Assembly (NCBI RefSeq): GCF_041296385.1
Contig: NW_027183775.1
Location: 1 to 64,000, forward strand
Source of the DNA: Aphelocoma coerulescens
Taxonomy: Eukaryota; Chordata; Aves; Passeriformes; Corvidae
Direction: 5' to 3'
Length of the DNA: 64,000 nucleotides
Below the pieces are notes generated by a model. That model searched no databases, had not been told where the DNA came from, and saw nothing but the letters and a program-made list of their open reading frames with translations. The position numbers and the translations under genes were made by a program. Of the stretch, positions 3,101-47,595 are shown piece after piece (positions within the stretch are counted from its first letter, which is position 1; every line of letters starts with the position of its first letter).

Positions 3101-6100
3101 GGAAATGTGGGATTTTGGGGGGAAAAAAGGGATTTTGGGGGGAAAATAGGAAAAAATGGGGGGGAAATGTGGGATTTTGGGAGGAAAAAAAGGGATTTGG
3201 GGTCAAAAATGTGGGATTTGGGGGGAAAAAATGGGATTTTGGGGGAAAATGTGGGATTTTGGGAGGAAAATGGGGGATTTTGGGGGGAAAAAAGATTTTG
3301 TGGGGAAAATGTGGAATTTGGGGGGAAAAAATGGGGGAAAATGTGGGATTTTGGGGGGAAAATGTGGGATTTTGGGAGAAAAAAAGGGATTTTGGGGGGA
3401 AAAAATGGGATTTTGGGTGGGAAAATTGGGATTGTGGGGGGAAAATGTGGGGTTTGGGTGGAAAAACCTCAGGAAATTGGGGGAAAATGTGGGATTTTTT
3501 TAGGAAAAGCTGGGAAATTTTCCATGAATGAAACCTGGAATGGCTCCAAAATCCTCTGGAGTCGCTAAAAAAAAATCCTGGAATTGCTCCAGAAATCCCT
3601 GGAATTGCTCCCAAAAAAAATCCCCTGGAATGGCTCCAAATCCCTGGAATTTCTCGGAAAAAAACCCCTGGAATTGTTCCCAAAAAATTCCCTGGAATTG
3701 CCCCAGAAAAGGCAAAAAAATCTTGGAATTGCTCCAGAAATATTCCTGGAATTGTGCCAGAAAAAATCCTGGAATGGCTCCAGAAAATTCCCCTGGAATT
3801 GCCCCAAAAAAATCCTGGAATTATCCAAAAAAATCCCCTGGAATTGCCCCCAAAAAATCCAAAAAAATCCTGGAATTGCCCCAAAAAAATCCTGGAATTG
3901 CTCCCAAAAATCCCCTGGAATTTCTCAGAAAAAAACCCTGGAATTGCCCCAAAATCCCTGGAATTTACCCCAAAAAAATCCTGGAATTGCTCCAAAAATC
4001 CTTGGAATTGCTCCAAAAAAAAAATCCAAAAAATCCTGGAATTGCTCCAGAAATATCCTGGAATGGCTCCAGAAAATTCCCCTGGAATTGCCCCCAAAAA
4101 ATCCAAAAAAATCCTGGAATTTCTCAGAAAAAAAATGCTGGAATTGCCCCAAAAATCCTTGGAATTGCTCCAAAAAAATTCCAAAAAATTCCAAAAAATC
4201 CTGGAATTGCCCCCAAATCCCTGGAATTGGGGGGGCCCTTCCCGGGGGAATTCCAGGGGGAATTTTGGGATGAGGAACTCCCGGGCCAGGGGGATCCGGG
4301 AATTCCAGGATGGGACGGGAATTCCGGGAGGTTCCGGAGGGAATTTTGGGATTTGGGAATTCTGGGGTTGGACAGGGAATTTTGGGGGGATTTGGGAAGG
4401 GAATTTGGGGGATTTTGAGGGGATTTTTTGGGATTTAGGAGGGAATTTGGGCGATTGGAGAGGGAATTTTGGGAATTTTGGGAATATTTGGGATTGAATT
4501 TCCCTGCACACGGAATTCCGGGGGGCTCGGAGGCCGCGGGGTCGGAATTCCGAAGGGGAATTCCCAACATTCCAGGGATGAAATTCCCAACATTCCAGGG
4601 GGGAATTCCCAACATTCCAGGGGGGAATTCCCAACATTCCAAGGGCTGAAATTCCCGAAATTCTGGAGGAATTCCCAACATTCCAAAGAGCAATTCCCAC
4701 CATTCCACAGGGGAATTCCCAACATTCCACAGGGGAATTCCCAACATTCCAAGGGCTGAAATTCCCGCCATTCCAAAGGATAAAATTCCCAACATTCCAA
4801 GCCGGAATTCCCGCCATTCCAAGGGCTGAAATTCCCAAAATTCTGGAGGAATTCCCGCCATTCCAAAGGCTGAAATTCCCAACATTCCAGGGCTGAAATT
4901 CCCGAAATTCTGGAGGAATTCCTGGAATTCCAAAGGCTGAAATTCCCACCATTCCAAGGCTGAAATTCCCAACATTCCAAACCAGAATTCCCGGAATTCT
5001 GGAGGAATTCCCACCATTCCAAGGGCTGAAATTCCCGGAATTCTGGAGGAATTCCCACCATTCCAAGGGCTGAAATTCCCGGAATTCTGGAGGAATTCCC
5101 ACCATTCCAAGGCTGAAATTCCCACCATTCCAAGGGCTGTAATTCCCGGAATTCTGGAGGAATTCCCAACATTCCAAAGGGGAATTCCCAACATTCCAGA
5201 GGGGAATTCCCGCCATTCCAAAGGCTGAAATTCCCGGAATTCTGGAGGAATTCCCACCATTCCAAGGGCTGAAATTCCCGGAATTCTGGAGGAATTCCTG
5301 GAATTCCAAGGGCTGAAATTCCCAACATTCCAAAGGATGAAATTCCTGAAATTCTGGGGGAATTCCCAACATTCCAGGGGATGAAATTCCCAACATTCCA
5401 AAGAGGAATTTCCCAACATTCCAAGGGGAATTTCCCAACATTCCAGGAGGGAATTCCCAGCATTCCAAAGGCTGAAATTCCCGAAATTCTGGAGGAATTC
5501 CCACCATTCCAAAGGCTGAAATTCCCAACATTCCAAAGGGGAATTCCCAGCATTCCAAAGGATGAAATTCCCGCCATTCCAAAGGGGAATTCCCAACATT
5601 CCAGGGGCTGAAATTCTGGAGGAATTCCCGGAATTCCAAGGGCTGAAATTCCCGCCATTCCAAAGGATGAAATTCCCAACATTCCAAAGGCTGAAATTCC
5701 TGAAATTCTGGGGGAATTCCCAATATTCCAAGGGATGAAATTCCCGCCATTCCAAGGCTGAAATTCCCGGAATTCTGGAGGAATTCCCGCCATTCCAAAG
5801 GGGAATTCCCGCCATTCCAAAGGATGAAATTCTCGAAATTCTGGAGGAATTCCCGCCATTCCAAAGGCTGAAATTCCCAACATTCCAAAGGCTGAAATTC
5901 CCAAAATTCTGGAGGAATTCCCACCATTCCAAGGCTGAAATTCCCAACATTCCAAGGCTGAAATTCCCACCATTCCAGGGCTGAAATTCCCAGAATTCTG
6001 GAGGAATTCCCACCATTCCAAAGGCTGAAATTCCCGGAATTCTGGAGGAATTCCCAACATTCCAAGGCTGAAATTCCCACCATTCCAAGGCTGAAATTCC

Positions 6101-9100
6101 CGGAATTCTGGAGGAATTCCCACCATTCCAAAGGCTGAAATTCCTGAAATTCTGGGGGAATTCCCAATATTCCAAGGGATGAAATTCCCGCCATTCCAAA
6201 GGCTGAAATTCCCAGAATTCTGGAGGAATTCCCGCCATTCCAAGGGCTGAAATTCCCAACATTCCAAGCCAGAATTCCCGAAATTCTGGAGGAATTCCCG
6301 CCATTCCAAAGGCTGAAATTCCCACCATTCCAGGGCTGAAATTCCCAAAATTCTGGAGGAATTCCCACCATTCCAGGGCTGAAATTCCCGGAATTCTGGA
6401 GGAATTCCCAACATTCCAAAGGCTGAAATTCCCGAAATTCTGGAGGAATTCCCAACATTCCAAAGGCTGAAATTCCCAACATTCCAAAGGATGAAATTCC
6501 CAACATTCTAAAGGCTGAAATTCCCGAAATTCTGGAGGAATTCCCGCCATTCCAAGGCTGAAATTCCCAAAATTCTGGAGGAATTCCCACCATTCCAAAG
6601 GCTGAAATTCCCACCATTCCAAGGCTGAAATTCCCAAAATTCTGGAGGAATTCCCACCATTCCAAGGGCTGAAATTCCCGGAATTCTGGAGGAATTCCCG
6701 CCATTCCAAAGGCTGAAATTCCCAAAATTCTGGAGGAATTCCCGCCATTCCAAAGGATGAAATTCTCGAAATTCTGGGGGAATTCCTGCCATTCCAAAGG
6801 CTGAAATTCCCAAAATTCTGGAGGAATTCCCGCCATTCCAAAGGATGAAATTCTCGAAATTCTGGGGGAATTCCTGCCATTCCAAAGGATGAAATTCCCG
6901 CCATTCCAAAGGGGAATTCCCAACATTCCAGGGGCTGAAATTCTGGAGGAATTCCCGGAATTCCAAGGGCTGAAATTCCCGCCATTCCAAAGGATGAAAT
7001 TCCCAACAATCCAAGCCGGAATTCCCGCCATTCCAAGGGCTGAAATTCCCAAAATTCTGGAGGAATTCCCACCATTCCAGGGCTGAAATTCCCAACATTC
7101 CAAAGGCTGAAATTCCCAAAATTCTGGAGGAATTCCCGCCATTCCAAGGCTGAAATTCCCAACATTCTGGAGGAATTCCCACCATTCCAAGGGCTGAAAT
7201 TCCCGAAATTCTGGAGGAATTCCCACCATTCCAAGGCTGAAATTCCCAAAATTCTGGAGGAATTCCCACCATTCCAGGGCTGAAATTCCCGGAATTCTGG
7301 AGGAATTCCCGCCATTCCAAGGGCTGAAATTCCCGGAATTCTGGAGGAATTCCCGCCATTCCAAGGCTGAAATTCCCGGAATTCTGGAGGAATTCCCGCC
7401 ATTCCAAGGCTGAAATTCCCGGAATTCTGGAGGAATTCCCACCATTCCAAGGGCTGAAATTCCCGGAATTCTGGAGGAATTCCCGCCATTCCAAGGCTGA
7501 AATTCCCGGAATTCTGGAGGAATTCCCGCCATCCCAAGGGCTGAAATTCCTGGAATTCTGGAGGAATTCCCGCCATTCCAAGGGCTGAAATTCCCGGAAT
7601 TCTGGAGGAATTCCCGCCATTCCAAAGGCTGAAATTCCCGGAATTCTGGAGGAATTCCCAACATTCCAAAGGCTGAAATTCCCAAAATTCTGGAGGAATT
7701 CCCACCATTCCAAGGGCTGAAATTCCCAACATTCCAAGCCAGAAGTCCTGAAATTCTGGAGGAATTCCCGCCATTCCAAAGGCTGAAATTCCCGCCATTC
7801 CAAGGGCTGAAATTCCCAAAATTCTGGAGGAATTCCCGCCATTCCAAAGGCTGAAATTCCCAAAATTCTGGAGGAATTCCCACCATTCCAAAGGCTGAAA
7901 TTCCCGGAATTCTGGAGGAATTCCCGCCATTCCAAAGGCTGAAATTCCCAGAATTCTGGAGGAATTCCCGCCATTCCAAGGGCTGAAATTCCCAACATTC
8001 CAAGCCAGAATTCCCGAAATTCTGGAGGAATTCCCACCATTCCAGGGCTGAAATTCCCAACATTCCAAAGGCTGAAATTCCCACCATTCCAAGGCTGAAA
8101 TTCCCGAAATTCTGGAGGAATTCCCACCATTCCAAAGGCTGAAATTCCCAACATTCCAAAGGCTGAAATTCCCACCATTCCAGGGCTGAAATTCCCAAAA
8201 TTCTGGAGGAATTCCCACCATTCCAAGGCTGAAATTCCCGGAATTCTGGAGGAATTCCCGCCATTCCAAAGGCTGAAATTCCCAACATTCCAAGGCTGAA
8301 ATTCCCGCCATTCCAAAGGCTGAAATTCCCAAAATTCTGGAGGAATTCCCGCCATTCCAAGGCTGAAATTCCCAACATTCTGGAGGAATTCCCACCATTC
8401 CAAGGGGTGAAATTCCCGAAATTCTGGAGGAATTCCCAACATTCCAAGGCTGAAATTCCGGCTGCTTTTCCCGCAGATCCCTCGGGGTTGGTGCTCGACC
8501 TTCGCTCCGGGGCCGTTCGCGCCCAGGGCGGCGCCGCCGAGAACATGAAGGAAAAGGTGCCCTGCCCGCAATTCCCGGAATTCCCGCAATTCCCACAATT
8601 CCCGCAATTCCCGCAATTCCCGGGTCCCCAGCAGTCCCCAGTTTTCCTAGAATTCCCTGATTTTTTTCCCAGTTTCCCCCATGCCCTTTCCCAGTTTTTC
8701 CCGGGGTTTTTCCCACTTTCCCCCGTGCCCTTTCCCAGTTTTCCCCATGCCTTTGCCCAGTTTTTCCCATTACTTTTCCCAGTTTCCCCCGTGCCCTTTC
8801 CCAGTTTTCCCCATTACTTTTCCCAGTTTCCCCCATGCCTTTTCCCAGTTTCCCCCGTGCCCTTTCCCAGTTTCCCCATTACTTTTCCCAGTTTCCCCGT
8901 GCCCCTTCCCGGTTTCCCCATGCCCTTTCCCAGTTTTCCCCGTGCCCTTTCCCAGTTTCCCCATTACTTTTCCCAGTTTCCCCCGTGCCCTTTCCCAGTT
9001 TTCCCCGTGCCCTTTCCCAGTTTCCCCATTACTTTTCCCAGTTTCCCCCGTGCCCTTTCCCAGTTTTCCCCGTGCCCTTTCCCAGTTTCCCCGTGCCCTT

Positions 9101-15100: not shown

Positions 15101-18100
15101 ATGCTGGGAGTGCTGGGAGTGTTGGGAATGTTGGAATATCGGGAATTCTGGGAGTGCTGGGAATGCTGGGAATGCCGGGAGTGCTGGGAATGATGGGGAA
15201 TGTCGGGAATGCTGGGAGTGCTGGGAATTCTGGGAATTCCAGGAATGCTGGGGGTGCTGGGAATGTCGGGAATGTCGGGAATTCCAGGAGTGTTGGGAGT
15301 GCCGGGAATGCTGGGAGTGCTGGGAATTCCAGGAATGACAGGAGTGCTGGGAGTGCTGGGAATGATGGGAGTGTCAAGAATGCTGGGAATGTTGGGAATT
15401 CCAGGAGTGCTGGGAGTGCTGGGAATGCCGGGAATGCTGGGAGTGCTGGGAATGTTGGGAGTGCCGGGAATTCCGGGAATGCCAGGAATTCTGGGAATGC
15501 TGGGAGTGCCGGGAGTGCTGGGAGTGCTGGGAATTCCGGGAGTGTTGGGAGTGCTGGGAGTGACGGGAATGTCGGGAATTCCGGGAATGCTGAGAATGTC
15601 GGGAATGTCGGGAATTCCGGGAGTGCCGGGAGTGCTGGGAATGCCGGGAATTCCGGGAATGCTGGGAGTGGCGGGAGTGCTGGGAGTGACGGGAATGTTG
15701 GGAATTCCGGGAGTGTTAGGAGTGCTGGGAGTGCTGGGAATTCCAGGAATGTCGGGAATGCCGGGAGTGCTGGGAGTGCTGGGAATGATGGGAGTGTTGG
15801 GAAGTCCGGGAATGTCGGGAATGCCGGGAATTCCGGGAATGCTGGGAGTGCGGGAAAGCTGGGAATTCTGGGAGTGCCGGGAATTCCGGGAATGCTGGGA
15901 ATGTTGGGAATGCCGGGAATTCCAGGAATCCTGGGAGTGCTGGGAGTGCTGGGAATTCCAGGAGTGCCGGGAATGCCGGGAATTCCGGCACCTCAGAGGG
16001 AATTCCGGCAGCTGGGAGGGAATTCGGGGCATTTTGGGGGGAATTCCGGGCATTTTGGGGGAATTTTTGGGGGTTTTGAGGGAGTTTTTTGGGTGTTTGG
16101 GAGGGAATTTTGGGGTTTGGGAGGGAATTTTTTGGGGTTTTGAGGGAATTTTCTGGGATTTTGAGGGAGTTTTTGGGGATTTTGAGGGAATTTTTGGGGA
16201 TTTTAGGGGAATTTTTGGGGGTTTTGAGGGAATTTTGGGGATTTTGAGGGAATTTTTTGGGATTTGGGAAGGAATTTTGGGGATTTCAGAGGGAATTTTT
16301 GGGGGATTTGGGAGGGAATTGTGGGATTCGGGAGGGAATTTTTGGGATTTGGGAGGGAATTTTTAGGGATTTCCGATGGAATTTTGGGATTTGGGATGGA
16401 GTTTTTTAGGGATTTGGGAGGGAATTTGGAGGATTTTGGGGGAATTTGGGGGATTTGGGATGGAATTTGGCCGGAATTTGGGCCCCAGGCTTCCCCTCCC
16501 CCCCTGCAATTCCCCTCCCCTGTTTTTCCTGGAATTCTCCTTTTTTCCCCCCATTCCCAGTTTTCCCACTGCTTTTTCCCAGGGAATGCCAGCGAGGTGC
16601 TGAAGGAATGGACGGTGACTGGGAAAAAAAAGGTGAATTCCCAAAAAATCCTGGCGTTTTCCCCAATTTCTTTCCCATCTTTCCCAATTATTTTCCTATT
16701 TTTCCCCAATTTTTCCCCAATTTTTCCCCATTTTCCCCATTTTTCCCCAATTTTTCCCCATTTTTCCCCATTTCCCCCCAATTATCCCCAATTTTTCCCA
16801 CAAATTTTCCCCCTTTTCCCAATTTTTTCCCCATTTTTTCCCCAATTTTCCCCAATTTTTCCCCCATTTCCCCACCATTTTCCCCCATTCTTTCCCAATT
16901 TTCCCTATTTTTTTCCCAATTTTCCCCAATTTTTTTCCCAATTTTTCCTCCAACTTTCCCACATTCTTCCCCAATTTTTCCCCAATTTTCCCCAATTTTT
17001 TCCCAATTTTCCCCATCTTTCCCTGTTTTTCCCCCATTTTTTTCCCAATTTTTCCCCAATTTTCCCCAATTTTTTTCCCCAATTTTCCCCATTTTTTCCC
17101 TGTTTTCCCCCCAACTTTTATCCAATTTTTCCCTAATTTTTCCCCAACTTTCCCCCAACTTTCCCCCATTTTTTCCCAATTTTTTTCCCCATTTCCCCCC
17201 ATTTCCCCCCATTTTTCCCCCATTTTTCCCCATTTTTCCCCAATTTTCCCCAATTTTTTCCCCAATTTTCCCCATTTTTTCCCTGTTTTCCCCCCAACTT
17301 TTCTCCAATTTTTCCCCCAATTTTTCCCCCAATTTTTTCCCCATTTTTTCCCTATTTTTTTCCCCATTTTTTTCCCATTTTTCCCCCATTTTTTTCCCCA
17401 ATTTTCCCCATTTTTTCCCTGGTTTTCTCCCAATTTTTCCCCATTTTTTCCCTGTTTTTCCCTCATTTTTTCCCCCATTCTTCCCCCATTCTTCCCCAAT
17501 CTTTCCTCAATTTTCCCCAATTTTTTCCCCAATTTTCCTCATTTTTTCCCTGTTTCCCCCCCAACTTTTATCCAATTTTTCCCCAATTTTTTCCCCAATT
17601 TTCCCCCAACTTTCCCCCATTTTCCCCCATTTTTTCCCCATTTTTTCCCCCAACTTTCCCCTATTTTTTCCCCCATGTTTTCCCCAATTTTCCCCAATTT
17701 TTTTCCCAATTTTCCCAATTTTTTTTCCTTTTTTCCCCCCATTTTTCCCCCATTTTTCCCCATTTTTCCCCAATTTTTCCCCAATTTTCCCCAATTTTTT
17801 CCCTAATTTTCCCCACTTTTTCCCCATTTTTTCCCCAATTTATTCCCCAACTTTCCCCCAACTTTCCCCCAACTTTCCCCATTTTCTCCCCATTTTCTCC
17901 CCATTTTTTCCCCAATTTTCCCCCCTTTCCCCCCTTTCCCCCCACTTCCCCCAACCCCCCCCCCCATTTCCCCTCCCCCACCCCCCATTCCCGCTTTCCC
18001 TCCCTTCCCCCTCCCAGCACAAGAAGAAGAAGCCCAAAGCCCAACCCCCACCCGGCTCCGAGGACACCTGGGAACGGCCGGCCCCGGGACCGGGATCAGC

Positions 18101-21100
18101 GGGATCATCGGGATCCGCGGGATCGAGATCGGGATCGTCGGGATTGGGACTGGCACCGGGATCATTGGGATCACCGGGGTTATTGGGATCACCGGGCTCG
18201 TTGAGATCATCGGCACCGGGATCATCGGCACCGGGATCATCGGCACTGGGATCATTGGGATCATCAGCACCAGGATCATTGGCACCGGGATCATTGGGAT
18301 CACCGGGATTATTGGGATCATCGGCACCGGGATCATCGGCACCGGGATCATCGGCACTGGGATTATTGGGATTATTGGGCTCATTGGGCTCACCGGGATC
18401 ACCGGCACCGGGATCATCGGCACCGGGATCATCGGCACTGGGATCATTGGGCTCACCGGGATCCCCGGGATCACCGGGAAGGGCCCTGAACGGCCTCGGC
18501 GCCGCCTCGGGATCGCTGGAGTCGCTCAGTGACGGCGCCGAGGCCGCGGAGCCGCCGGCAGCGGGTGCGGCACCGGGATCGGGGCACGGGGGGAGCCCGG
18601 GGAGTTTGGGGAGTTTTGGGAGATTTGGGGGATTTTTGGGGATTTTTGGGGGATTTTTTGGGGATTTTTTGGGGGATTTTTTAGAATTTTTTGGGGATTT
18701 TGGGGGATTTTTTGGGATTTTTTGGGGGATTTTTTGGGATTTTTTTGGGGACTTTTTGGGGATTTTTGGGGGATTTTTTGGGGGATTTTTTGGGATGTTT
18801 TTGGGGATTTTTGGGGGATTTTTGGGGGTTTTTTAAGGGATTTTTTGGAATTTTCTGGAGATTTTTGCGGGATTTTTTGGGGGATTTTTGGGGATTTTTT
18901 TTCAATTTTTGGGGGATTTTTTGGGATTTTTGGGGGGATTTTTTGGGGATTTTTGGGGGATTTTTTGGGATGTTTTTGGGGATTTTTTGGGGATTTTCGG
19001 GGGTTTTTTAAGGGATTTTTTGGAATTTTTTGGAGATTTTTGCGGGATTTTTTGGGGAATTTTTGGGGGATGTTTTTGGGGATTTTTTGTGGATTTTTGG
19101 GGATTTTTTTTCACTTTTTGGGGGATTTTTGGGGATTTTTTTTCACTTTTTGGGGGATTTTTTGAGGATTTTTGGGGGATTTTTGGGGGATTTTTTGGAA
19201 TTTTTTGGGGGATTTTTTGGGGATTTTTGGGGATTTTTGGGGATTTTTTGGGGATTTTTTGGTTTTTTGGGGGGGATTTTTGGGGGATTTTTTGGGGATT
19301 TTTGGGGATTTTTTGGGGGATTTTTTGGGGATTTTTTTTCAATTTTTGGGGGCTTTTGGGGGGATTTTTTGGAATTTTTGGGGGATTTTTTGGGGGAATT
19401 TTTGGGGGAATTTTTGGGGGGATTTTTTTTTATTTTGGGGGAATTTTGGGGGGATTTTTTGGGGGAGAAATGGGGCTGAATCCTGGATTTTCCTGGAGCT
19501 GTTCCAGGGGTGGATTCCCAACGGATTTTTGGCTTTTCCCGCAGCCCTGGGGAGCGAAATTCCGGCTTTTTCCACCCAATCCCGGCCCGGGGCCCCTTCC
19601 CGGAGCCCCCGGAGCAGCCCCGGATCCCCGGGAGGGAAAAAACTGGGTCAGGAATTGGGGAAAAATTGGGAATTCTGGGGGAAAAATGGGAATTTTGGGG
19701 GGAAAATGGGAATTATGGGGGGGGGAAATGGGAATTCTGGGGGAAAAATGGGAATTATGGGGGGGGGAAATGGGAATTCTGGGGGAAAAATGGGAATTAT
19801 GGGGGGAAAATGGGAATTTTGGGGGAAAAATAAGAATTCTGGGGGGAAAATGGGAATTGGGGAGGGAAAATGGGAATTATGGGGGAAAAATGGGAATTGG
19901 GGAGGGGAAATGGGAATTGGGGTGGAAAAAACAGGAATTGGGGGGGAAATGGGAATTTGGGGGGAAAAATGGGAATTTTGGGGGAAAAATGAGAATTCTG
20001 GGGGGAAAATGGGAATTGGGGAGGGAAAATGGGAATTGGGGAGGGAAAAAATGGGAATTTTAGGGGAAAATGGGAATTCTGGGGGGAAAATGGGAATTGG
20101 GGTGAGAAAATGGGAATTTTGGGGAGGGAAAAATGGGAATAATGGAAGAAAAAAATGGGAATTTTGGGGGAAAAATCGGGAATTATGGGGAAAATGGGAA
20201 TTGGGGTGGGAAAATGAGAATTGGGGCAGAAAAATGGGAATTTTGGGGGGGGGAATGGGAATTGGGGAGGGAAAAATGGGAATTGGGGGTGGGAAAAATG
20301 GGAATTTTGGGGAGGGAAAAATGGGAATTATGGAATGAAAAATGGGAAATTTGGGGGGAAAAATGGGAATTGGGGAGGGAAAATGGGAATTGGGGCAGAA
20401 AAATGGGAATTTGGGGGGGGGAAACAGGAATTGGGGAGGGAAAAACAGGAATTGCCTGGCTCGGCCCCACAGGCCCCAGCCTGGAGAAGTCCCTGAAGGA
20501 TCTGCAGCAGGGAGGGAAAAATGGGAATTGTGGGGGAAAAGTGGGAATTGGGGTGGGAAAAACAGGAATTGGGGCAGAAAAATGGGAATTTTGGGGTGGG
20601 AAAAATGGGAATTGGGGCAGAAAAATGGGAATTTTGGGGAGGGAAAAACGGGAATTGTGTGGCTCCACCCCCGCAGGCCCCAGCCTGGAGAAGTCCCTGA
20701 AGGATCTGCAGCAGGGAGGGAAAAATGGGAATTGGGGAGGGAAAAATGGGAATTGGGGGTGGGAAAAATGGGAATTGGGGGTGGGAAAAACAGGAATTGG
20801 GGCAGAAAAATGGGAATTTTGGGGAGGGAAAAACAGGAATTGTGTGGCTCCACCCCCGCAGGCCCCAGCCTGGAGAAGTCCCTGAAGGACCACGGCAGGG
20901 AGGGAAAAATGGGAATTGGGGGTGGGAAAAATGGGAATTTTGGGGGAAAAGTGGGAATTGGGGAGGGAAAATGGGAATTGGGGTGGGAAAAACAGGAATT
21001 GGGGCAGAAAAATGGGAATTTTGGGGAGGGAAAAACGGGAATTCCGTGGCTGTGCCCACAGGCCCCAGCCTGGAGAAGTCCCTGAAGGACCACGGCAGGG

Positions 21101-24100
21101 AGGGAAAAATGGGAATTGGGGGTGGGAAAAAGGGAATTGAGGTGGGAAAAATGGGAATTTTGGGGGAAAAGTGGGAATTGGGGTGGGAATTGGGAATTGG
21201 GGCAGAAAAATGGGAATTTTGGGGTGGGAATGATGGGAATTGCGTGTCTCTGCTGCAGGCCCCAGCCTGGAGAAGTCCCTGAAGGATCTGCAGCGCTGCG
21301 CCGTGGCCCTGGCGCGGTTCCGGGCGCTGCTGAGGCAGGACACGGAGAGCTCCGTGAGGAGCCTGAAACGCGCCTTCGGAGACATCCAGAGCTGGTCTGG
21401 GAATACTGGGAATAATGGGAATTGTGGGATGGGAATGGGATGGGAATGATGGGAATGGGGGAATGGGGATGGGAATGGGGATGGGAATGGGGATGAGGCA
21501 GGGAGGGACACAGAGAACTCCGTGAGGAGCCTGAAACGCGCCTTCGGAGAGATCCAGAGCTGGTCTGGGAACTGTGGGAATAATGGGAATTATGGGATGG
21601 GGATGGGATGGGAATGATGGGAATGATAGGAATGGGGATGGGGATGGGGATGGGGATGGGGATGGGAATGGGGGAATGGGAATGGGGATGGGAATGGGGA
21701 TGGGAAGGACACGGAGAGCTCCGTGAGGAGCCTGAAACGCGCCTTCGGAGACATCCAGAGCTGGTCTGGGAATACTGGGAATAGTGGGAATTGTGGGATG
21801 GGAATGATGGGAATGGGAATGGGGGAATGGGGATGGGGGAATGGGGATGGGGGAATGGGAATGGGGATGGGAATGGGGACGGGGATGGGGCAGGGAGGGA
21901 CACGGAGAGCTCCGTGAGGAGCCTGAAACACGCCTTGGGAGAGATCCAGAGCTGGTCTGGGAATAGTGGGAATAATGGGAATTGTGGGATGGGAATGGGA
22001 TGGGAATGGGATTGGGAATTATGGGAATTATGGGAATTATGGGGATGGGGGAATGGGAATGGGAATGGGGCAGGGAGGGACACGGAGAGCTCCGTGAGGA
22101 GCCTGAAACGCGCCTTGGGAGAGATCCAGAGCTGGTCTGGGAATAGTGGGAATAATGGGAATTCTGGGATGGGGATGGGATGGGAATGATGGGAATTATG
22201 GGAATTATGGGAATTATGGGATGGGAATGGGATGGGAATGATGGGAATGATGGGAATTATGGGAATTATGGGATGGGAATGGGATGGGAATGATGGGAAT
22301 GGGGGAATGGGGATGGGGATGGGGATGGGGGAATGGGAATGGGGATGGGGGAATGGGAATGGGGATGGGAATAGGAATGGGGGAATAGGAATGGGGGAAT
22401 GGGAATGGGGATGGGGATGGGGATGGGGATGGGGATGGGGGAATGGGGATGAGGATGGGAATGGGGGAATGGGAATGGGGATGGGAACGGGAATGGGGAT
22501 GGGAAGGACACGGAGAGCTCCGGGAGGAGCCTGAAACGCGCCTTGGGAGAGATCCAGAGCTGGTCTGGGAATAGTGGGAATAATGGGAATTATGGGATGG
22601 GAATGGGAATGATGGGAATGATGGGAATGGGGGAATGGGGATGGGGATGGGGATGGGAATGGGGGAATGGGAATGGGGATGGGGGTGGGAATGGGAATGG
22701 GGATGGGGATGGGGATGGGGATGGGGATGGGGATGGGGATGAGGATGGGAATGGGGGAATGGGAATGGGGGAATGAGAATGGGGATGGGAACGGGGATGG
22801 GGCAGGGAGGGACACGGAGAGCTCCGTGAGGAGCCTGAAACGCGCCTTGGGAGAGATCCAGAGCTGGTCTGGGAATAGTGGGAATAATGGGAATTGTGGG
22901 ATGGGAATGATGGGAATTATGGGAATTATGGGATGGGGATGGGAATGGGGATGGGGATGGGGGAATGGGGATGGGGCAGTTCAAGGGGGAGCTGGGAGGG
23001 GAGAATTCCATGGACAGAAATTCCTTCTCCTGCTCCCCAATTCCTCCTTCCCCCAATTCCCACCCCAATTCCCACCCCAATTCCCCCTTCCCCCAATTCC
23101 CCCTTCCCCCAATTCCCACCCCAATTCCTTCCTCCTCCCCCTTCTCCCTCCCCAATTCCCGCTGCAATTCCCGGGTTTCCCTCTGGGCTCTCTCCCGGCG
23201 CTTCCCGCGGCTCCGGTGCCACCTGCCGGCGATTCCCGCCTGGAATTCCCTGCCCGGAGCCTTCCCTGCTCCTCCCCTTTTCCTTTTTCCCTGATTTTCC
23301 CTGATTTTTCCTCCTTTTTCCTCCTTTCCCCTCCTTTTCCCCATTTTTTCCCTCCTTTCCCCTCCTTTCCCCTCCTTTTCCCTCCCTTTCCCTTCTTTTC
23401 CCTTCTTTTCCCTGATTTTCCCTCCTTTCCCCTCCTTTCCCCTCTTTTTCCCCATTTTTTTCCCTCCTTTTCCCTCCTTTTCCCTGATTTTCCCTCTTTT
23501 TTCCTCCTTTTCCCTCCTTTTCCCCATTTTTCCCATTTTTCCCCCGTTTTTCCCCCATTTCCTCCTGTTCCCCATCCCATCCCACCCCAGTCCCTCCCAG
23601 TCCCTCCCAGTCCCTCCCAGTCCATCCCAGTCCATCCCATCCCATTCCCAGTCCATCCCAGTCCATCCCAGTCCCTCCCATCCCATCCCATTCCCAGTCC
23701 ATCCCAGTCCCTCCCAGTCCATCCCAGTCCATCCCATCCCAGTCCCTCCCATCCCATCCCATTCCCAGTCTATCCCAGTCCATCCCAGTCAATCCCGTCC
23801 CATTCCCAGTTCATCCCAGTCAATCCCGTCCCATTCCCAGTCCCTCCCATCCCATTCCCAGTCCATCCCATTCCCAGTTCCCTCCCAGTCCATCCCAGTC
23901 CCTCCCATCCCATTCCCAGTCCCTCCCAGTCCATCCCAGTCCCTCCCATCCCATTCCCAGTCGCTCCCAGTCGCTCCCAGTCACTCCCAGTTGCTCCCAG
24001 TCTCTCCCAGTCGCTCCCGTCCCATTCCCAGTCGCTCCTATCCCGTTCCCAGTCCCTCCCAGTCCATCCCAGTCCCTCCCATCCCATTCCCAGTCCGTCC

Positions 24101-27100
24101 CAGTCCCTCCCAGTTGCTGACGCTCTCGGTTGCCGCTGTTGCAGCCTCATGGATCGGGAGGTGGCCCTGCTGGCCGAGATGGACACGGTCAAGGCGGAAG
24201 CGAGTGAGGCCCCGGCCCTGACCCCGACCCCAAAATGGGACCCCTGACCCCAAAATGGGACCCCTGAGCCTGACCCCGACCCCAAAATGGGACCCCTGAG
24301 CCCGATCCTGACCCCAAAATGGGACCCCTGAGCCCGATCCTGACCCCAAAATGGGACCCCCCCAACCCCAAAATGGGACCCCCCAACCCCAATCCTGACC
24401 CTGACCCCAATCCTGACCCCAACCCCAAAATGGGACCCCGACCCCAAAATGGGACCCCTGACCCCAACCCTGAGCCCGACCCCAATCCTGACCCTGACCC
24501 CGACCCCAAAATGGGACCCCTGACCCCGATCCTGACCCCAAAATGGGACCCCTGACCCTGACCCTGACATGGGACCGCCTGACCCCGACCCCAACCCCAA
24601 AATGGGACCCCCCAACCCCGACCCTGACCCCAATCCTGACCCCGACCCCAAAATGGGACCCCTGACCCTGATCCCAATCCTGACCCCGACCCCAAAATGG
24701 GACCTCCTGACCCCGACCCCGACCCTGAGCCCAACCCCAATCCTGACCCTGACCCCGACCCCAAAATGGGACCCTCCAACCCTGACCCCGATCCTGACCC
24801 CGACCCCAAAATGGGACCCCCCCGGCCCTGACCGTGACCCTGACCCTGATCCTGAGCCCTGACCCTGACCCCGACCCCAAAATGGGACCCCCCGACCCCG
24901 ACCCTGACCCCAACCCTGACCCCGACCCTGACCCTGACCCCATTCCCGGCCCCGGGGCCATTCCCGCCATTCCCAAGGGGGGGAAGGGAATTCCCGGTTT
25001 TCCATCCCTAATTCCTGCTTTCCCAGGCTTTTTTCCCCATTTCCCATCCCCAATTCCCCGGGTTTTTCCCCCTTTCCCGTGTGTCATTCCCAGTTTCCCG
25101 TGTGTCATTCCCGGGGTTTTCCCCCTTTCCCGTGTGTCATTCCCGAATTCCCAGTTCCCGTGTGTCATTCCCGGTTCCCGTGTGTCATTCCCGAATTCCC
25201 GGTTTCCCGTGTATCATTCCCGGATTCCCAGTTTCCCGTGTGTCATTCCCGGGGTTTTCCCCCTTTCCCGTGTGTCATTCCCGGATTCCCGGGGTTTCTC
25301 CCCATTTCCCATCCCCAATTCCCGGGGTTTTTCCCACCCTTTCCCGTGTGTCATTCCCGGGGTTTTTCCCCCTTTCCCGTGTGTCATTCCCGGTTCCCGT
25401 GTGTCATTCCCGAATTCCCGGGGTTTTCCCCCTTTCCCGTGTGTCATTCCCGGGGTTTTTCCCCCTTTCCCGTGTGTCATTCCCGGTTTCCCATGTGTCA
25501 TTCCCGAATTCCCGGTTTCCCGTGTGTCATTCCCGGTTCCCGTGTGTCATTCCCGGTTTCCCGGTTCCCGTGTGTCATTCCCGGGGTTTTTCCCCCCTTT
25601 CCCGTGTGTCATTCCCGGTTTCCCGTGTGTCATTCCCCAATTCCCAGTTCCCATGTGTCATTCCCAGTTCCCGTGTGTCATTCCCAGTTCCCGTGTGTCA
25701 TTCCCGGTTTCCCGTGTGTCATTCCCGGTTCCCGTGTGTCATTCCCCAATTCCCGGTTCCCGTGTGTCATTCCCGGGGTTTTTCCCCCCTTTCCCGTGTG
25801 TCATTCCCGGTTTCCCGTGTGTCATTCCCGGTTCCCGTGTGTCATTCCCGAATTCCCGGTTTCCCGTGTGTCACTCCCGGTTCCCGTTCCCAGTGGAGCT
25901 CCTGGCGCTCCGGCAGCGCCGCGCCGAGGCCCTGCGGAAGCTCACGGAGGCGGCGCCGGGAATGTCGGAGGAGCAGCTGCTGGAGCTGCGCGCGGACATC
26001 AAGGTGTGATCCCGGGAATCCGCGGGGATCCCTGCCCCGATCCCATGGAATCCCTGCCCTGATCCCATTGGAATTCCTGCCCTGATCCCTGCCCCGATCC
26101 CATTGAATCCCTGCCCTGATCCCATGGAATCCCTGCCCTGATCCCATTGGAATCCCTGCCCTGATCCCATTGGAATTCCTGCCCTGATCCCATTGGAATT
26201 CCTGCCCTGATCCCTGTCCCGATCCCATGGAATCCCAGCCCTGATCCCATTGGAATTCCTGCCCTGATCCCATGGAATTCCTGCCCTGATCCCATTGGAA
26301 TTCCTGCCCTGATCCCTGCCCCAATCCCTTGGAATCCCTGCCCCAATCCCATTGGAATTCCTGCCCGGATCCCATTGGAATTCCTGCCCTGATCCCTGCC
26401 CCGATCCCATGGAATTCCTGCCCCGATCCCATTGGAATTCCTGCCCTGATCCCATGGAATCCCTGCCCTGATCCCATTGGAATTCCTGCCCCGATCCCAT
26501 GGAATTCCTGCCCCAATCCCTTGGGAATTCCTGCTTTGATCCCGGTGCTCCCAGCCCCATTCCCACTCCTGCTCTGATCCCGGGCAGCTCCGGCTTGGAT
26601 CTCCCCATTCCCTGCCCCCATTCCCGCTGGGAATTCCCGTTGTTCCCGCTGGGAATTCCCAATTTTCCCGCTGGGAATTCCCATCATTCCGGGTGGGAAT
26701 TCCCATTGTTCCGGGTGGGAATTCCCGACTTTCCCGCTGGGAATTCCTGTTGTTCCGGCTGGGAATTCCCGATTTTCCTGCTGGGAATTCCCGTTGTTCC
26801 GGGTGGGAATTCCCGATTTTCCCGCTGGGAATTCCCGTTGTTCCAGCTGGGAATTCCCGTTGTTCCAGCTGGGAATTCCCGATTTTCCTGCTGGGAATTC
26901 CCGATTTTCCCGCTGGGAATTCCCGTTGTTCCTGCTGGGAATTCCCAATTTTCCGGGTGGGAATTCCCGATTTTCCCGCTGGGAATTCCCATCATTCCGG
27001 GTGGGAATTCCCGTTGTTCCCGCTGGGAATTCCCATTGTTCCTGATGGGAATTCCCGTTGTTCCGGGTGGGAATTCCCGTTGTTCCGGGTGGGAATTCCC

Positions 27101-32159: not shown

Positions 32160-32659
32160 NNNNNNNNNNNNNNNNNNNNNNNNNNNNNNNNNNNNNNNNN
32201 NNNNNNNNNNNNNNNNNNNNNNNNNNNNNNNNNNNNNNNNNNNNNNNNNNNNNNNNNNNNNNNNNNNNNNNNNNNNNNNNNNNNNNNNNNNNNNNNNNNN
32301 NNNNNNNNNNNNNNNNNNNNNNNNNNNNNNNNNNNNNNNNNNNNNNNNNNNNNNNNNNNNNNNNNNNNNNNNNNNNNNNNNNNNNNNNNNNNNNNNNNNN
32401 NNNNNNNNNNNNNNNNNNNNNNNNNNNNNNNNNNNNNNNNNNNNNNNNNNNNNNNNNNNNNNNNNNNNNNNNNNNNNNNNNNNNNNNNNNNNNNNNNNNN
32501 NNNNNNNNNNNNNNNNNNNNNNNNNNNNNNNNNNNNNNNNNNNNNNNNNNNNNNNNNNNNNNNNNNNNNNNNNNNNNNNNNNNNNNNNNNNNNNNNNNNN
32601 NNNNNNNNNNNNNNNNNNNNNNNNNNNNNNNNNNNNNNNNNNNNNNNNNNNNNNNNNNN
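32160..32659. other. Assembly gap, exactly 500 N
   Basis: Five hundred N characters lie between the two inverted arms. A round length usually marks a scaffold join of unknown true size. Confidence 0.99.
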
Positions 32660-38170: not shown

Positions 38171-39840
38171 CTGGGAACGGGAACCGGGAGTGACACACGG
38201 GAAACCGGGAATTCGGGAATGACACACGGGAACCGGGAATGACACACGGGAAACCGGGAATGACACACGGGAACCGGGAATGACACACGGGAAACCGGGA
38301 ATGACACACGGGAAAGGGGGGAAAAACCCCGGGAATGACACACGGGAACCGGGAAACCGGGAATGACACACGGGAACCGGGAATGACACACGGGAACCGG
38401 GAATTGGGGAATGACACACGGGAACCGGGAATGACACACGGGAAACCGGGAATGACACACGGGAACTGGGAATGACACACGGGAACTGGGAATGACACAC
38501 GGGAACTGGGAATTGGGGAATGACACACGGGAAACCGGGAATGACACACGGGAAAGGGGGGAAAAACCCCGGGAATGACACACGGGAACCGGGAAACCGG
38601 GAATGACACACGGGAACCGGGAATGACACACGGGAAACCGGGAATTCGGGAATGACACATGGGAAACCGGGAATGACACACGGGAAAGGGGGAAAAACCC
38701 CGGGAATTGGGGATGGGAAATGGGGAGAAACCCCGGGAATCCGGGAATGACACACGGGAAAGGGGGCAAACCCCGGGAATGACACACGGGAAACTGGGAA
38801 TGACACACGGGAACCGGGAATGACACACGGGAAACTGGGAATGACACACGGGAAAGGGGGAAAAACCCGGGGAATTGGGGATGGGAAATGGGGAAAAAAG
38901 CCTGGGAAAGCAGGAATTAGGGATGGAAAACCGGGAATTCCCTTCCCCCCCTTGGGAATGGCGGGAATGGCCCCGGGGCCGGGAATGGGGTCAGGGTCAG
39001 GGTCGGGGTCAGGGTTGGGGTCAGGGTCGGGGTCGGGGGGTCCCATTTTGGGGTCGGGGTCAGGGTCAGGGCTCAGGATCAGGGTCAGGGTCACGGTCAG
39101 GGCCGGGGGGGTCCCATTTTGGGGTCGGGGTCAGGATCGGGGTCAGGGTTGGAGGGTCCCATTTTGGGGTCGGGGTCAGGGTCAGGATTGGGGTTGGGCT
39201 CAGGGTCGGGGTCGGGGTCAGGAGGTCCCATTTTGGGGTCGGGGTCAGGATTGGGATCAGGGTCAGGGGTCCCATTTTGGGGTCGGGGTCAGGATTGGGG
39301 TCAGGGTCGGGGTTGGGGGGTCCCATTTTGGGGTTGGGGTCGGGGTCAGGCGGTCCCATGTCAGGGTCAGGGTCAGGGGTCCCATTTTGGGGTCAGGATC
39401 GGGGTCAGGGGTCCCATTTTGGGGTCGGGGTCAGGGTCAGGATTGGGGTCGGGCTCAGGGTTGGGGTCAGGGGTCCCATTTTGGGGTCGGGGTCCCATTT
39501 TGGGGTCGGGGTCAGGATTGGGGTCAGGGTCAGGATTGGGGTTGGGCTTGAGGGGTCCCATTTTGGGCTCAGGGGTCCCATTTTGGGGTCAGGATCGGGC
39601 TCAGGGGTCCCATTTTGGGGTCAGGGGTCCCATTTTGGGGTGGGGGTTGGGCTCAGGGGTCCCATTTTGGGGTCGGGGTCCCATTTTGGGGTCGGGGTCA
39701 GGGTCAGGGGTCCCATTTTGGGGTCGGGGTCCCATTTTGGGCGCAGGGGTCCCATTTTGGGGTTGGGGTCCCATTTTGGGGTTGGGGTCAGGGTCAGGGG
39801 TCCCATTTTGGGGTCAGGGGTCCATTTTGGGGGGGCTCAG
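38171..39840 (-). repeat. Intron 8 (right)
   Basis: 38171-38860 is GGGAATGACACACGGGAACC array, and 38985-39840 is GGGGTCAGGGTCCCATTTTG array, with a short unique stretch between them (about 38870-38985). Confidence 0.9.
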
Positions 39841-39866
39841 GGCCGGGCCTCCCGCCTGACCGGAGG
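39836..39866 (-). pseudogene. SPATS2: Scar of exon 8 (right)
   Basis: Read on the minus strand, GTCCCTCC repeat is followed directly by GGTCAGGCGGGAGG and CCCGGCCCTGAG. The left copy has GGTCAAGGCGGAAGCGA then GTGAGG at exon 8's end. The branch/pyrimidine region, acceptor, about 43 exon bases and the donor are gone; LMDREVALLAEMD is not found anywhere in this arm. Confidence 0.85.
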
Positions 39867-42800
39867 GACTGGGACTGGGAGGGACTGGGGATGAGGGATG
39901 GGATTGGGAGGGACTGGGAGGGCGGGACTGGGATGGGGACTGGGGGGACTGGGGATGGGGAATGGGATGGGAGGGCGACTGGGAGGGACTGGGATGGGAT
40001 GGGAGCGACTGGGAGGGACTGGGAGGGACTGGGAATGGGATGGGAGGGACTGGGAGGGCACTGGGAATGGGATGGGAGCGACTGGGAGGGCACTGGGATG
40101 GACTGGGAGGGACTGGGAATGGGATGGGAGCGACTGGGATGGACTGAGAGGGAACTGGGAATGGGATGGACTGGGAATGGGATGGGAGGGACTGGGAGGG
40201 ACTGGGAATGGGACGGGATTGACTGGGATGAACTGGGAATGGGACGGGATTGACTAGGATGGACTGGGATAGACTGGGAATGGGATGGGATGGGAGGGAC
40301 TGGGATGGACTGGGATGGACTGGGAGGGACTGGGAGGGACTGGGAATGGGATGGGATGGACTGGGAGGGAACTGGGAATGGGATGGACTGGGAGGGACTG
40401 GGATGGACTGGGATGGACTGGGAATGGGATGGGATGGACTGGGAGGGACTGGGAGGGACTGGGAGGGACTGGGAATGGGATGGGATGGACTGGGATGGAC
40501 TGGGAGGGACTGGGAATGGGATGGGATGGACTGGGAGGGACTGGGAGGGACTGGGGTGGGATGGGATGGGGAACAGGAGGAAATGGGGGAAAAACGGGGG
40601 AAAAATGGGAAAAAATGGGGAAAAGGAGGGAAAAGGAGAGGAAAGGAGGGGAAAGGAGGGAAAAGGAGGGGAAAATGGGGAAAAGGAGGAAAAAAGGGAA
40701 AAGGAGGGAAAAGGAGGGAAAAGGAGGAAAAATCAGGGAAAATCAGGGAAAAAGGAAAAGGGGAGGAGCAGGGAAGGCTCCGGGCAGGGAATTCCAGGCG
40801 GGAATCGCCGGCAGGTGGCACCGGAGCCGCGGGAAGCGCCGGGAGAGAGCCCAGAGGGAAACCCGGGAATTGCAGCGGGAATTGGGGAGGGAGAAGGGGG
40901 AGGAGGAAGGAATTGGGGTGGGAATTGGGGGAAGGGGGAATTGGGGGAAGGGGGAATTGGGGTGGGAATTGGGGTGGGAATTGGGGGAAGGGGGAATTGG
41001 GGAGCAGGAGAAGGAATTTCTGTCCATGGAATTCTCCCCTCCCAGCTCCCCCTTGAACTGCCCCATCCCCATTCCCCCATCCCCATCCCCATCCCCATTC
41101 CCCCATTCCTATTCCCCCATTCCTATTCCCATCCCCATTCCCATTCCCCCATCCCCATTCCCATTCCCCCATCCCCATCCCCATCCCCATTCCCCCATTC
41201 CCATCATTCCCATCATTCCCATCCCATTCCCATCCCATAATTCCCATCATTCCCATCCCATTCCCATAATTCCCATTATTCCCACAATTCCCAGACCAGC
41301 TCTGGATCTCTCCCAAGGCGCGTTTCAGGCTCCTCACGGAGCTCTCCGTGTCCCTCCCTGCCCCATTCCCATTCCCATTCCCCCATCCCCATAATTCCCA
41401 TAATTCCCAACCCCGTTCCCATCATTCCCATCCCATAATTCCCATTATTCCCACTATTCCCAGACCAGCTCTGGATGTCTCCGAAGGCGCGTTTCAGGCT
41501 CCTCATGGAGCTCTCCGTGTCCCTCCCTGCCCCATCCCCATTCCCATCCCCATTCCCCCATTCCCATTCCCCCATTCCCATCCCCATCCCCATTCCCATT
41601 CCCCCATCCCCATTCCCCCATCCCCATCCCCATTCCCATTCCCCCATTCCCATCCCCATTCCCCAACCCCATTCCCATCCCACAATTCCCATTATTCCCA
41701 CTATTCCCAGACCAGCTCTGGATGTCTCCGAAGGCGCGTTTCAGGCTCCTCCCAGAGCTCTCCGTGTCCCTCCCTGCCCCATCCCCATCCCCATCCCCAT
41801 TCCCATCATTCCCATCATTCCCATCCCATTCCCATCCCATAATTCCCATAATTCCCATAATTCCCAATCCCATTCCCATCATTCCCAATCCCATTCCCAT
41901 AATTCCCATTATTCCCACTATTCCCAGACCAGCTCTGGATGTCTCTGAAGGCGCGTTTCAGGCTCCTCACGGAGCTCTCCGTGTCCCTCCCTGCCCCATC
42001 CCCATCCCCATTCCCCCATTCCCATTCCCCCATCCCCATTCCCATTCCCCCATTCCCATCCCCATTCCCCAACCCCATTCCCATCCCACAATTCCCATTA
42101 TTCCCACTATTCCCAGACCAGCTCTGGATGTCTCCGAAGGCGCGTTTCAGGCTCCTCCCAGAGCTCTCCGTGTCCCTCCCTGCCCCATCCCCATCCCCAT
42201 CCCCATTCCCATCATTCCCATCATTCCCATCCCATTCCCATCCCATAATTCCCATAATTCCCAATCCCATTCCCATCATTCCCAATCCCATTCCCATAAT
42301 TCCCATTATTCCCACTATTCCCAGACCAGCTCTGGATCTCTCCCAAGGCGCGTTTCAGGCTCCTCACGGAGCTCTCCGTGTCCCTCCCTGCCTCATCCCC
42401 ATCCCCATTCCCATCCCCATTCCCATTCCCCCATTCCCATTCCCATTCCCCCATTCCCATCCCCATTCCTATCATTCCCATCATTCCCATCCCATTCCCA
42501 TCCCATAATTCCCATAATTCCCAATCCCATTCCCATCATTCCCAATCCCATTCCCATAATTCCCATTATTCCCACTATTCCCAGACCAGCTCTGGATCTC
42601 TCCCAAGGCGCGTTTCAGGCTCCTCACGGAGCTCTCCGTGTCCCTCCCTGCCCCATCCCCGTCCCCATTCCCCCATCCCCATTCCCATAATTCCCAATCC
42701 CATTCCTATAATTCCCATAATTCCCACAATTCCCACTATTCCCAGTATTCCCAGACCAGCTCTGGATCTCTCCCAAGGCGCGTTTCAGGCTCCTCACGGA

Positions 42801-43132
42801 GCTCTCCGTGTCCTTCCCATCCCCATTCCCATCCCCATTCCCATTCCCCCATTCCCATCCCCATCCCCATCCCCATCCCCATCCCCATTCCTATCATTCC
42901 CATCATTCCCATCCCATCCCCATCCCATAATTCCCATTATTCCCACAGTTCCCAGACCAGCTCTGGATGTCTCCCAAGGCGCGTTTCAGGCTCCTCACGG
43001 AGTTCTCTGTGTCCCTCCCTGCCCCATCTCCATCCCCATTCCCCCAATCCCATTCCCATAATTCCCAATCCCATTCCCATCATTCCCATCCCACAATTCC
43101 CATTATTCCCATTATTCCCAGTATTCCCAGAC
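39867..43132 (-). repeat. Intron 7 (right)
   Basis: 39867-40565 is GGGACTGGGA-type repeat, 40565-40760 purine tract, 40760-41060 unique island, and 41060-43132 CCCATCCCCATTCCC array with partial exon copies. Confidence 0.9.
41293..43019 (-). repeat. Nine partial copies of exon 7's 3' end (right)
   Basis: Copies lie near 41293, 41461, 41709, 41926, 42114, 42322, 42582, 42751 and 42953, each about 65 bp, with the complement of the donor (CCAGAC, CAGCTCTGGAT) and the CGCGTTTCAGGCTCCTC core. Three more than in the left arm. Variants (CTCATGG, CTCCCAG) mark sub-lineages. Confidence 0.92.
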
Positions 43133-43268
43133 CAGCTCTGGATGTCTCCGAAGGCGCGTTTCAGGCTCCTCACGGAGCTCTCCGTGTCCTGCCTCAGCAG
43201 CGCCCGGAACCGCGCCAGGGCCACGGCGCAGCGCTGCAGATCCTTCAGGGACTTCTCCAGGCTGGGGC
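43133..43268 (-). CDS. SPATS2: Exon 7 (right)
   Basis: 136 nt with the same translation and borders as left exon 7. It is the only full-length copy among the partial ones, recognised by the unique middle part encoding RCAVALARFRALLRQ. Confidence 0.94.
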
Positions 43269-47171: not shown

Positions 47172-47595
47172 CCGCTGCCGGCGGCTCCGCGGCCTCGGCG
47201 CCGTCGCTGAGCGACTCCAGCGATCCCGAGGCGGCGCCGAGGCCGTTCAGGGCCCTTCCCGGTGATCCCGGGGATCCCGGTGATCCCAATGATCCCAGTG
47301 CCGATGATCCCGGTGCCGGTGATCCCGGTGAGCCCAATGAGCCCAATAATCCCAATAATCCCAGTGCCGATGATCCCGGTGCCGATGATCCCGGTGCCGA
47401 TGATCCCAATAACCCCGGTGATCCCAATGATCCCGGTGCCAGTCCCAATCCCGACGATCCCGATCTCGATCCCGCGGATCCCGATGATCCCGCTGATCCC
47501 GGTCCCGATCCCGCTGATCCCGGTCCCGGGGCCGGCCGTTCCCAGGTGTCCTCGGAGCCGGGTGGGGGTTGGGCTTTGGGCTTCTTCTTCTTGTG
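47172..47595 (-). CDS. SPATS2: Exon 5 (right), 41 codons shorter
   Basis: 424 nt with the same HKKKKPKAQPPPGSEDTWER start and SLESLSDGAE end. The Gly/Ser repeat is 123 nt shorter yet in frame, and contains an extra GSGPGSA near its start. Confidence 0.75.

Follow-up and report, generated by a model that had tools for sequence, protein, structure and literature searches.

In a stretch of the genome of Aphelocoma coerulescens comprising positions 1–64000 of a 72,663-bp contig (C355, in an assembly of 1.33 Gb and 660 contigs), and referred to here as the window, the gene SPATS2 contains a 136-nt coding exon both ends of which, each with its splice site, are repeated along the intron adjoining it. 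These exon-end copies very probably represent exon stuttering that has struck both borders of one exon, and are a fresh two-sided example of that phenomenon rather than a new kind of element. Exon stuttering, named in 2026 on the basis of the chicken dot chromosomes (Hron et al., Genome Biol Evol, PMC12954441), is described there as a process in which a lateral portion of an exon, together with its donor or acceptor, is copied along the adjacent intron; an earlier interpretation of the window made from the letters alone (the sequence-only reading), which knew of no named element of this kind, was therefore wrong on that point. What has been described least is the involvement of an exon at both its ends, and SPATS2 adds a clear case of it.

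Copies of both exon ends in the adjacent introns

The gene stands twice in the window, in two inverted arms, and the description that follows concerns the left arm unless stated otherwise. The exon at 21259–21394 was called exon 7 in the sequence-only reading, a number that is specific to that reading. Its assignment to SPATS2, already proposed in that reading, is confirmed by a match to positions 161–203 of the PF07139 (SPATS2-like) profile with an E-value of 2.5e-12. The borders of the exon are CTGCAG/GCCCC at the acceptor and GAGCTG/GTCTGG at the donor, the latter placed as in the paralogue SPATS2L, and its splice sites and phase fit both neighboring exons (19545–19646 and 24145–24203). Arrays detected by Tandem Repeats Finder (TRF) with periods of up to 100 bp make up 87% of the window and occupy most of both introns that flank the exon.

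Seven left-arm exons, the outer ends of e4, e5 and e10 being approximate, were compared with six introns using the published settings for stuttering (PMC12954441), i.e. blastn-short with a length of at least 20 nt and a score of at least 42.1 bits. The screen returned 11 matches of 20 nt or longer, 10 of which were accepted, and all of these run from exon 21259–21394 into its own two adjacent introns (Table 1). Every one of the four upstream matches begins at exon position 1 and every one of the six downstream matches ends at position 136; the latter correspond to exon positions 79/80–136 and are each followed by an identical donor nonamer. In 100 mononucleotide shuffles of the introns, which like the published control preserve base counts only and leave repeats unmodelled, there was no passing match, and the best reached 28.2 bits. 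Exon positions 37–78 have no copy in the window beyond one per arm, and when the exon DNA was searched against the entire assembly, the best candidates, which alone are scored in such a search, gave 26 places, all on the same contig.

Most of what the sequence-only reading had said of this arrangement is borne out by BLAST: the four acceptor copies at 20473, 20677, 20862 and 21062, the six downstream copies of the last 58 or so nucleotides with the donor (57–58 nt, 94.7–100% identity), the first decoy donor GT at 21563, and the single exon middle all stand, as does the upstream spacing of 185–204 bp (204, 185 and 200 bp from start to start, and 197 bp from the last copy to the exon). The length of about 36 nt that it gave for the upstream piece holds for the copies at 20473 and 20677 and fails for those at 20862 and 21062, which comprise 28 nt. 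In the right arm the upstream copies are spaced at 163–202 bp, and the downstream copies are spaced at 168–428 bp in the left arm and 169–260 bp in the right.

Five features of exon stuttering were found together at this locus: direct copies in the adjacent introns, scores above the threshold, a source at the exon border that includes the splice site, introns dense in repeats, and a spared ohnologue. The last of these is SPATS2L, which we take to be the ohnologue of SPATS2. It lies on contig C9 (40 Mb) and has a counterpart exon, likewise of 136 nt, with the donor in the same place; no copy of this exon was found in the 7.4 kb before it and the 2.4 kb after it, the best match being 22.3 bits, and the 10-kb locus yields a single TRF row. 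Motifs of the G-quadruplex (G4) type cover 65% of the plus strand of the intron before the SPATS2 exon, and 42% and 30% of the plus and minus strands, respectively, of the intron after it, compared with zero coverage in two SPATS2L loci. The density of such motifs in both SPATS2 introns would suit the idea of replication stress put forward by Hron et al. (PMC12954441).

Table 1. Features of the SPATS2 locus in the window. Percentages are identities to the exon.
Feature	Positions	Strand	Remarks
Complete exon, left arm	21259–21394	+	136 nt; sole complete left-arm copy; encodes PSLEKSLKDLQRCAVALARFRALLRQDTESSVRSLKRAFGDIQS
Upstream copy 1	20473–20508	+	acceptor and first 36 nt; 100%, 71.9 bits
Upstream copy 2	20677–20712	+	acceptor and first 36 nt; 100%
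Upstream copy 3	20862–20889	+	acceptor and first 28 nt; 100%, 56.0 bits
Upstream copy 4	21062–21089	+	acceptor and first 28 nt; 100%
Downstream copy 1	21506–21562	+	last 57 nt and donor; 94.7%
Downstream copy 2	21706–21763 (start 21706/21707)	+	58 nt, equals exon; 100%, 115 bits
Downstream copy 3	21898–21954	+	94.7%
Downstream copy 4	22078–22134	+	96.5%
Downstream copy 5	22505–22562 (start 22505/22506)	+	94.8%
Downstream copy 6	22810–22866	+	96.5%
Preceding SPATS2 exon	19545–19646	+	supported by translation, splice sites, phase
Intron before exon	19647–21258	+	20-bp G/A-rich minisatellite; last 0.8 kb consists of 185–204 bp units with decoy acceptors
Intron after exon	21395–24144	+	TGGGAAT-type minisatellite, 168–428 bp units with decoy donors (to 22976), then other arrays
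Following SPATS2 exon	24145–24203	+	59 nt; not found in right arm
Gap between inverted arms	32160–32659	.	500 N; only N run in the 72,663-bp contig
Complete exon, right arm	43133–43268	-	identical sequence, 100%
Right-arm upstream array, five partial copies	43418–44212	-	starts 43445, 43646, 43847, 44010, 44212
Right-arm downstream array, nine partial copies with donors	41291–43014	-	starts 43014, 42813, 42643, 42383, 42175, 41986, 41769, 41522, 41353

Relation between the two arms

The left contig, up to about position 30627, is collinear with the right contig across the gap. Comparison of 24 of the 37 left-arm islands of unique sequence, all outside the stuttering arrays and amounting to 2737 bp, revealed 10 differences and no gaps between the arms (0.37%); the addition of nine islands from the arrays brings the count to 13 differences in 3304 bp. 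The remaining four of the 37 lack a full collinear partner in the window, namely the exon-8 island, the segment 32026–32115 near the gap and two islands at the left end, both of which have 98% matches in the part of the contig outside the window. Exon 24145–24203 was not found in the right arm, where only its 3' edge and flank persist, shortened and altered (39700–40760); a consensus error and a null allele are the candidate readings of this loss. Because the 500-N gap separates near-identical copies and their divergence is comparable to the heterozygosity of birds (given as 0.34% for a hummingbird and 0.95% for the zebra finch in PMC9516828), we read the arms as two haplotypes, the right arm most likely representing the second allele, attached in head-to-head orientation. 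It follows from this reading that the counts of the assembled arms, four upstream and six downstream copies on the left versus five and nine on the right, would be allelic length variation and not a second design. The sequence-only reading had counted five and nine correctly, but the independent second expanding array that it saw there is doubtful, as the arms look like haplotype contigs joined at the gap. A more general caution is that scaffolds of this kind may present two haplotypes as a palindrome.

The repeat units were also compared between the arms. For five of the 11 left units there is a right-arm partner with an identity of at least 0.90, and the best partners follow each other in the same order (20473 with 44212 at 0.95, 20862 with 43646 at 0.98, 21062 with 43445 at 0.90, 21506 with 43014 at 0.99, and 21898 with 41522 at 0.90); the best within-arm matches of the 5' units are 0.86 on the left and 0.92 on the right. 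Several units are therefore older than the split of the arms, and copy numbers have shifted later. Such a unit-by-unit comparison of two probable alleles bears on the mechanism, which the discoverers of exon stuttering left open, and is where the main value of the case lies.

Predicted consequences for splicing

Splice-site strengths are predictions from scoring matrices, to which all the values below refer, the donors of e4 and e10 being left aside. The decoy acceptors score 5.5–6.6 in the left arm and 5.5–9.8 in the right, compared with 8.2 for the true acceptor. The true donor is weak, at 2.55, and the six decoy donors of the left arm (21563, 21764, 21955, 22135, 22563 and 22867) are identical to it. 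A GAG/GTGGGA site at 21142, past the last left decoy acceptor, reaches 7.3, which makes 21062–21141 a candidate cryptic exon. In the left arm a stop is met whichever of the four decoy acceptors is paired with the true donor, and an in-frame stop in all six combinations of the true acceptor with a decoy donor. When the surroundings of the six downstream pieces were scanned for acceptors, from 120 nt before each piece to 40 nt into it, five had none above -4.3, and the stretch belonging to the sixth held one of 1.1 that is located inside the true exon. The six downstream pieces are predicted to be weak decoys and may serve chiefly as alternative donor sites for the true exon. The 15 downstream pieces of both arms vary at 9 sites over 57 nt, with 7 nonsynonymous and 2 synonymous changes, much as would be expected of non-coding copies. 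In the nine upstream pieces, the 28 exonic nucleotides have a mean distance of 0.008, compared with 0.46 for the preceding 20 nt, a value inflated by gapped alignment of short pieces; this likeness would be explained by conversion or recent spread equally well as by selection.

Proposed origin

The likeliest account of the copies is local tandem duplication across the exon borders followed by turnover of the arrays and some conversion, in agreement with the slippage or unequal exchange across exon borders envisaged in the sequence-only reading, which is supported as the best available account of origin. At the outset, minisatellite arrays would have reached right up to both borders of the exon. 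Next, a segment reaching from the intron array into the exon would be duplicated in tandem, and a lateral piece with its splice site would thereby enter the array: upstream of the full exon when the acceptor side is involved, and downstream of it, with the donor, in the mirror event. For the 3' copies the exchange perhaps took place at short matches such as TGAGGCAGG, which is found in the exon at 21331, where the copied part starts, and a second time at 21494, immediately ahead of the first downstream copy. The enlarged units, of about 160–430 bp, would subsequently multiply and shrink by slippage or unequal exchange, while conversion among units and with the true exon may help to keep the exon pieces alike. 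The exon middle would stay single probably through removal of a second full exon, because its 136 nt, not being a multiple of three, shift the frame, whereas a lone acceptor or donor would be mostly ignored by splicing. The duplication mechanism, the conversion and this selective filter are what we infer.

Some patches of sequence look like the products of conversion. The left piece at 21706 and the right piece at 42813 share exactly the 45 nt before and the 34 nt after the exon piece; the former piece equals the true exon and the latter differs from it at two sites. Furthermore, the right-arm copy at 43646, inside its array, has one mismatch in 55 nt relative to the true acceptor region and exon start.

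Alternative explanations

The exon-end copies could be an artefact, with noisy long reads through a G-rich array having been assembled into false copies, and the damage in the right arm, where exon 24145–24203 is replaced by its altered, shortened remnant, is possibly of such a kind. We regard this as highly improbable, given that both contigs carry arrays whose units correspond at up to 0.99 identity yet differ in number, that the copies bear distinct substitutions (9 sites within 57 nt vary among the 15 pieces), unlike a simple stutter of one sequence, and that the repeats of chicken PHF8 introns were, according to Hron et al., verified by raw nanopore reads (PMC12954441). A different possibility concerns the arms, which might be a real palindrome, so that the haploid genome has two SPATS2 genes and the copy numbers have diverged between paralogues. 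This is how the contig is assembled, and the 0.37% divergence of the unique islands would also fit a young palindrome homogenized by conversion; it is nevertheless an unlikely reading, being opposed by the 500-N gap between the arms, the collinearity of the left contig up to about 30627 with the right, the divergence in the range of bird heterozygosity (0.34% and 0.95%) and the listing of a scaffold gap between duplicates as a mark of false duplication (both PMC9516828), and the absence of exon 24145–24203 from one arm.

Two further proposals would give the copies a role. An array of decoys under selection to adjust the splicing of SPATS2, for instance by pulling transcripts into frames with premature stops, would be compatible with the scores of the decoy acceptors (5.5–6.6 and 5.5–9.8 versus 8.2) and of the donor at 21142 (7.3 versus 2.55), and with exonic parts of the nine upstream copies that are nearly unchanged (0.008) next to their preceding 20 nt (0.46, the inflated value). 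We consider it very unlikely, since the downstream changes show no sign of coding constraint (7 of 9 are nonsynonymous), the downstream pieces are without acceptors of their own, and recent spread or conversion accounts equally for the likeness of the upstream copies. The other proposal, to which we would give a rather small chance, is that the exon-end copies and the coding exon are partners in two-way conversion, the exon rewriting the copies and the copies being able to rewrite the exon ends. The copies carry nonsynonymous variants, e.g. GAC/GAG and TTC/TTG; if the proposal were true, the arrays would be a store of protein variation, and the uncopied exon middle would mark the limit set by splicing.

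Several observations weigh against the preferred account, of two-sided exon stuttering that arose by local duplication, turnover and some conversion. The TGAGGCAGG match is kept at one of the six left copies. The whole unit at 21707 is nearer to the right unit at 42175 (0.86) than to that at 42813 (0.80), and because whole-unit identity favors the former, it is the near flanks only that support both the pairing of 21706 with 42813 and its interpretation as conversion; two point mutations would explain the difference between these pieces equally well. On the 3' side, conservation of the exon piece (mean distance of 0.044) does not exceed that of the 20 intronic nucleotides that follow it (0.042), so there is no sign of exon-specific rewriting. 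Six of the 11 left units are without a right-arm partner at 0.90, and the length variation is read from two assembled arms. The contig is unplaced, which leaves its location on a dot chromosome hypothetical; such a location is typical, not required, as 190 of the 236 published introns lie on dots. The main text of PMC12954441 has no mention of two-sided stuttering under the terms tried. Finally, matches to the JHD family profile lie on contigs C2, C14 and C32, and the 10-kb piece C32:1189001–1199000 (L032), from a gene taken as PHF8-like, has a GC content of 0.66, 89% tandem-repeat cover and 11 islands, and yet shows no island copy of at least 42.1 bits, although the chicken stuttering intron, PHF8 intron 18, need not lie in this piece. 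Probably, therefore, not every such repeat-rich gene stutters.

Other repeats in SPATS2 and elsewhere in the assembly

Two further observations concern the gene itself. The 12-mer that ends the preceding exon (19630–19641) occurs 13 times in intron 19647–21258 and not at all in four other left-arm segments in which it was counted, so that an exon end may have been the seed of this intron's own basic repeat. The exon of SPATS2 that begins at 18018 contains an in-frame minisatellite of the GSSAPGSSAPGSL type. This array extends over 18091–18479 in the left arm (389 bp) and 47257–47522 in the right (266 bp), so that the arms differ by 123 bp or 41 codons, with a stop in neither.

Among 20 contig starts of 10 kb that were sampled, three had a tandem-repeat cover of 0.74–0.89, and copied islands numbered 0 of 7 in the first of these (L024), 1 of 6 in the second (L018) and 14 of 26 in the third (L029). 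The last, C300:1–10000, contains on its minus strand a coding-like exon (6251–6177) with five upstream repeats, at 82–91% identity, of its acceptor region (some 40 nt of intronic and 11–25 nt of exonic sequence); the exonic part alone scores 30.2 bits, under the 42.1-bit threshold, and the exon counts as a lead only. Beyond the window, at positions 5916–7647 of the segment L009 (C355:68916–70647), there is a tandem array with units of about 150–180 bp and unique-looking sequence. A search for the MCRS_N family, the neighbor gene serving as a chromosome marker, gave no match anywhere, controls included, and is hence uninformative.

Comparison with known systems

The arms, as distinct from the exon-end copies, resemble the heterotype false duplications described in PMC9516828, whose listed marks include a gap between the two duplicates within a scaffold: here, too, a near-identical pair lies on one scaffold with a gap between its members (500 N, 32160–32659) and a divergence of the order of heterozygosity. 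For the copies themselves, a partial parallel is provided by the polymorphic 31-bp variable number tandem repeat (VNTR) of human CBS, c.1444_1467+7(16_21) (PMC2630376), whose unit, going by its name, combines the final 24 nt of an exon with 7 intronic nucleotides and so multiplies an exon end with its donor. Judged from that name, the CBS repeat is unlike SPATS2 in having a short simple unit, in involving one exon end, in occurring in a mammal and in being without a larger, minisatellite-bearing unit.

The closest comparison is with the exon stuttering of the chicken, reported by Hron et al. (PMC12954441) in 115 genes and 236 introns, 190 of the latter on dot chromosomes. According to the text of that study, the copied pieces measure 20–187 nt (median 36) and are present in 1–44 copies (median 4), more than 90% of the sources are located no more than one base away from the border of the exon, length differences among chickens are recorded for 183 of 192 such introns, and the affected introns are full of simple repeats while the ohnologue is spared. 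SPATS2 agrees in its direct tandem arrangement of lateral pieces with a splice site, in piece length (28–58 nt) and copy number (four and six in the left arm), in its repeat-filled introns, in its unaffected paralogue and, if the arms are alleles, in its length variation. The gene is not named in the main text of the study. SPATS2 differs from the published cases in that both ends of the same exon are affected, a situation that a search of the main text by terms did not encounter, and in that another exon of the same gene carries an in-frame minisatellite whose length differs between the arms. Because coding regions are reported to be left intact by stuttering in the chicken, this length-variable coding array deserves a closer look.

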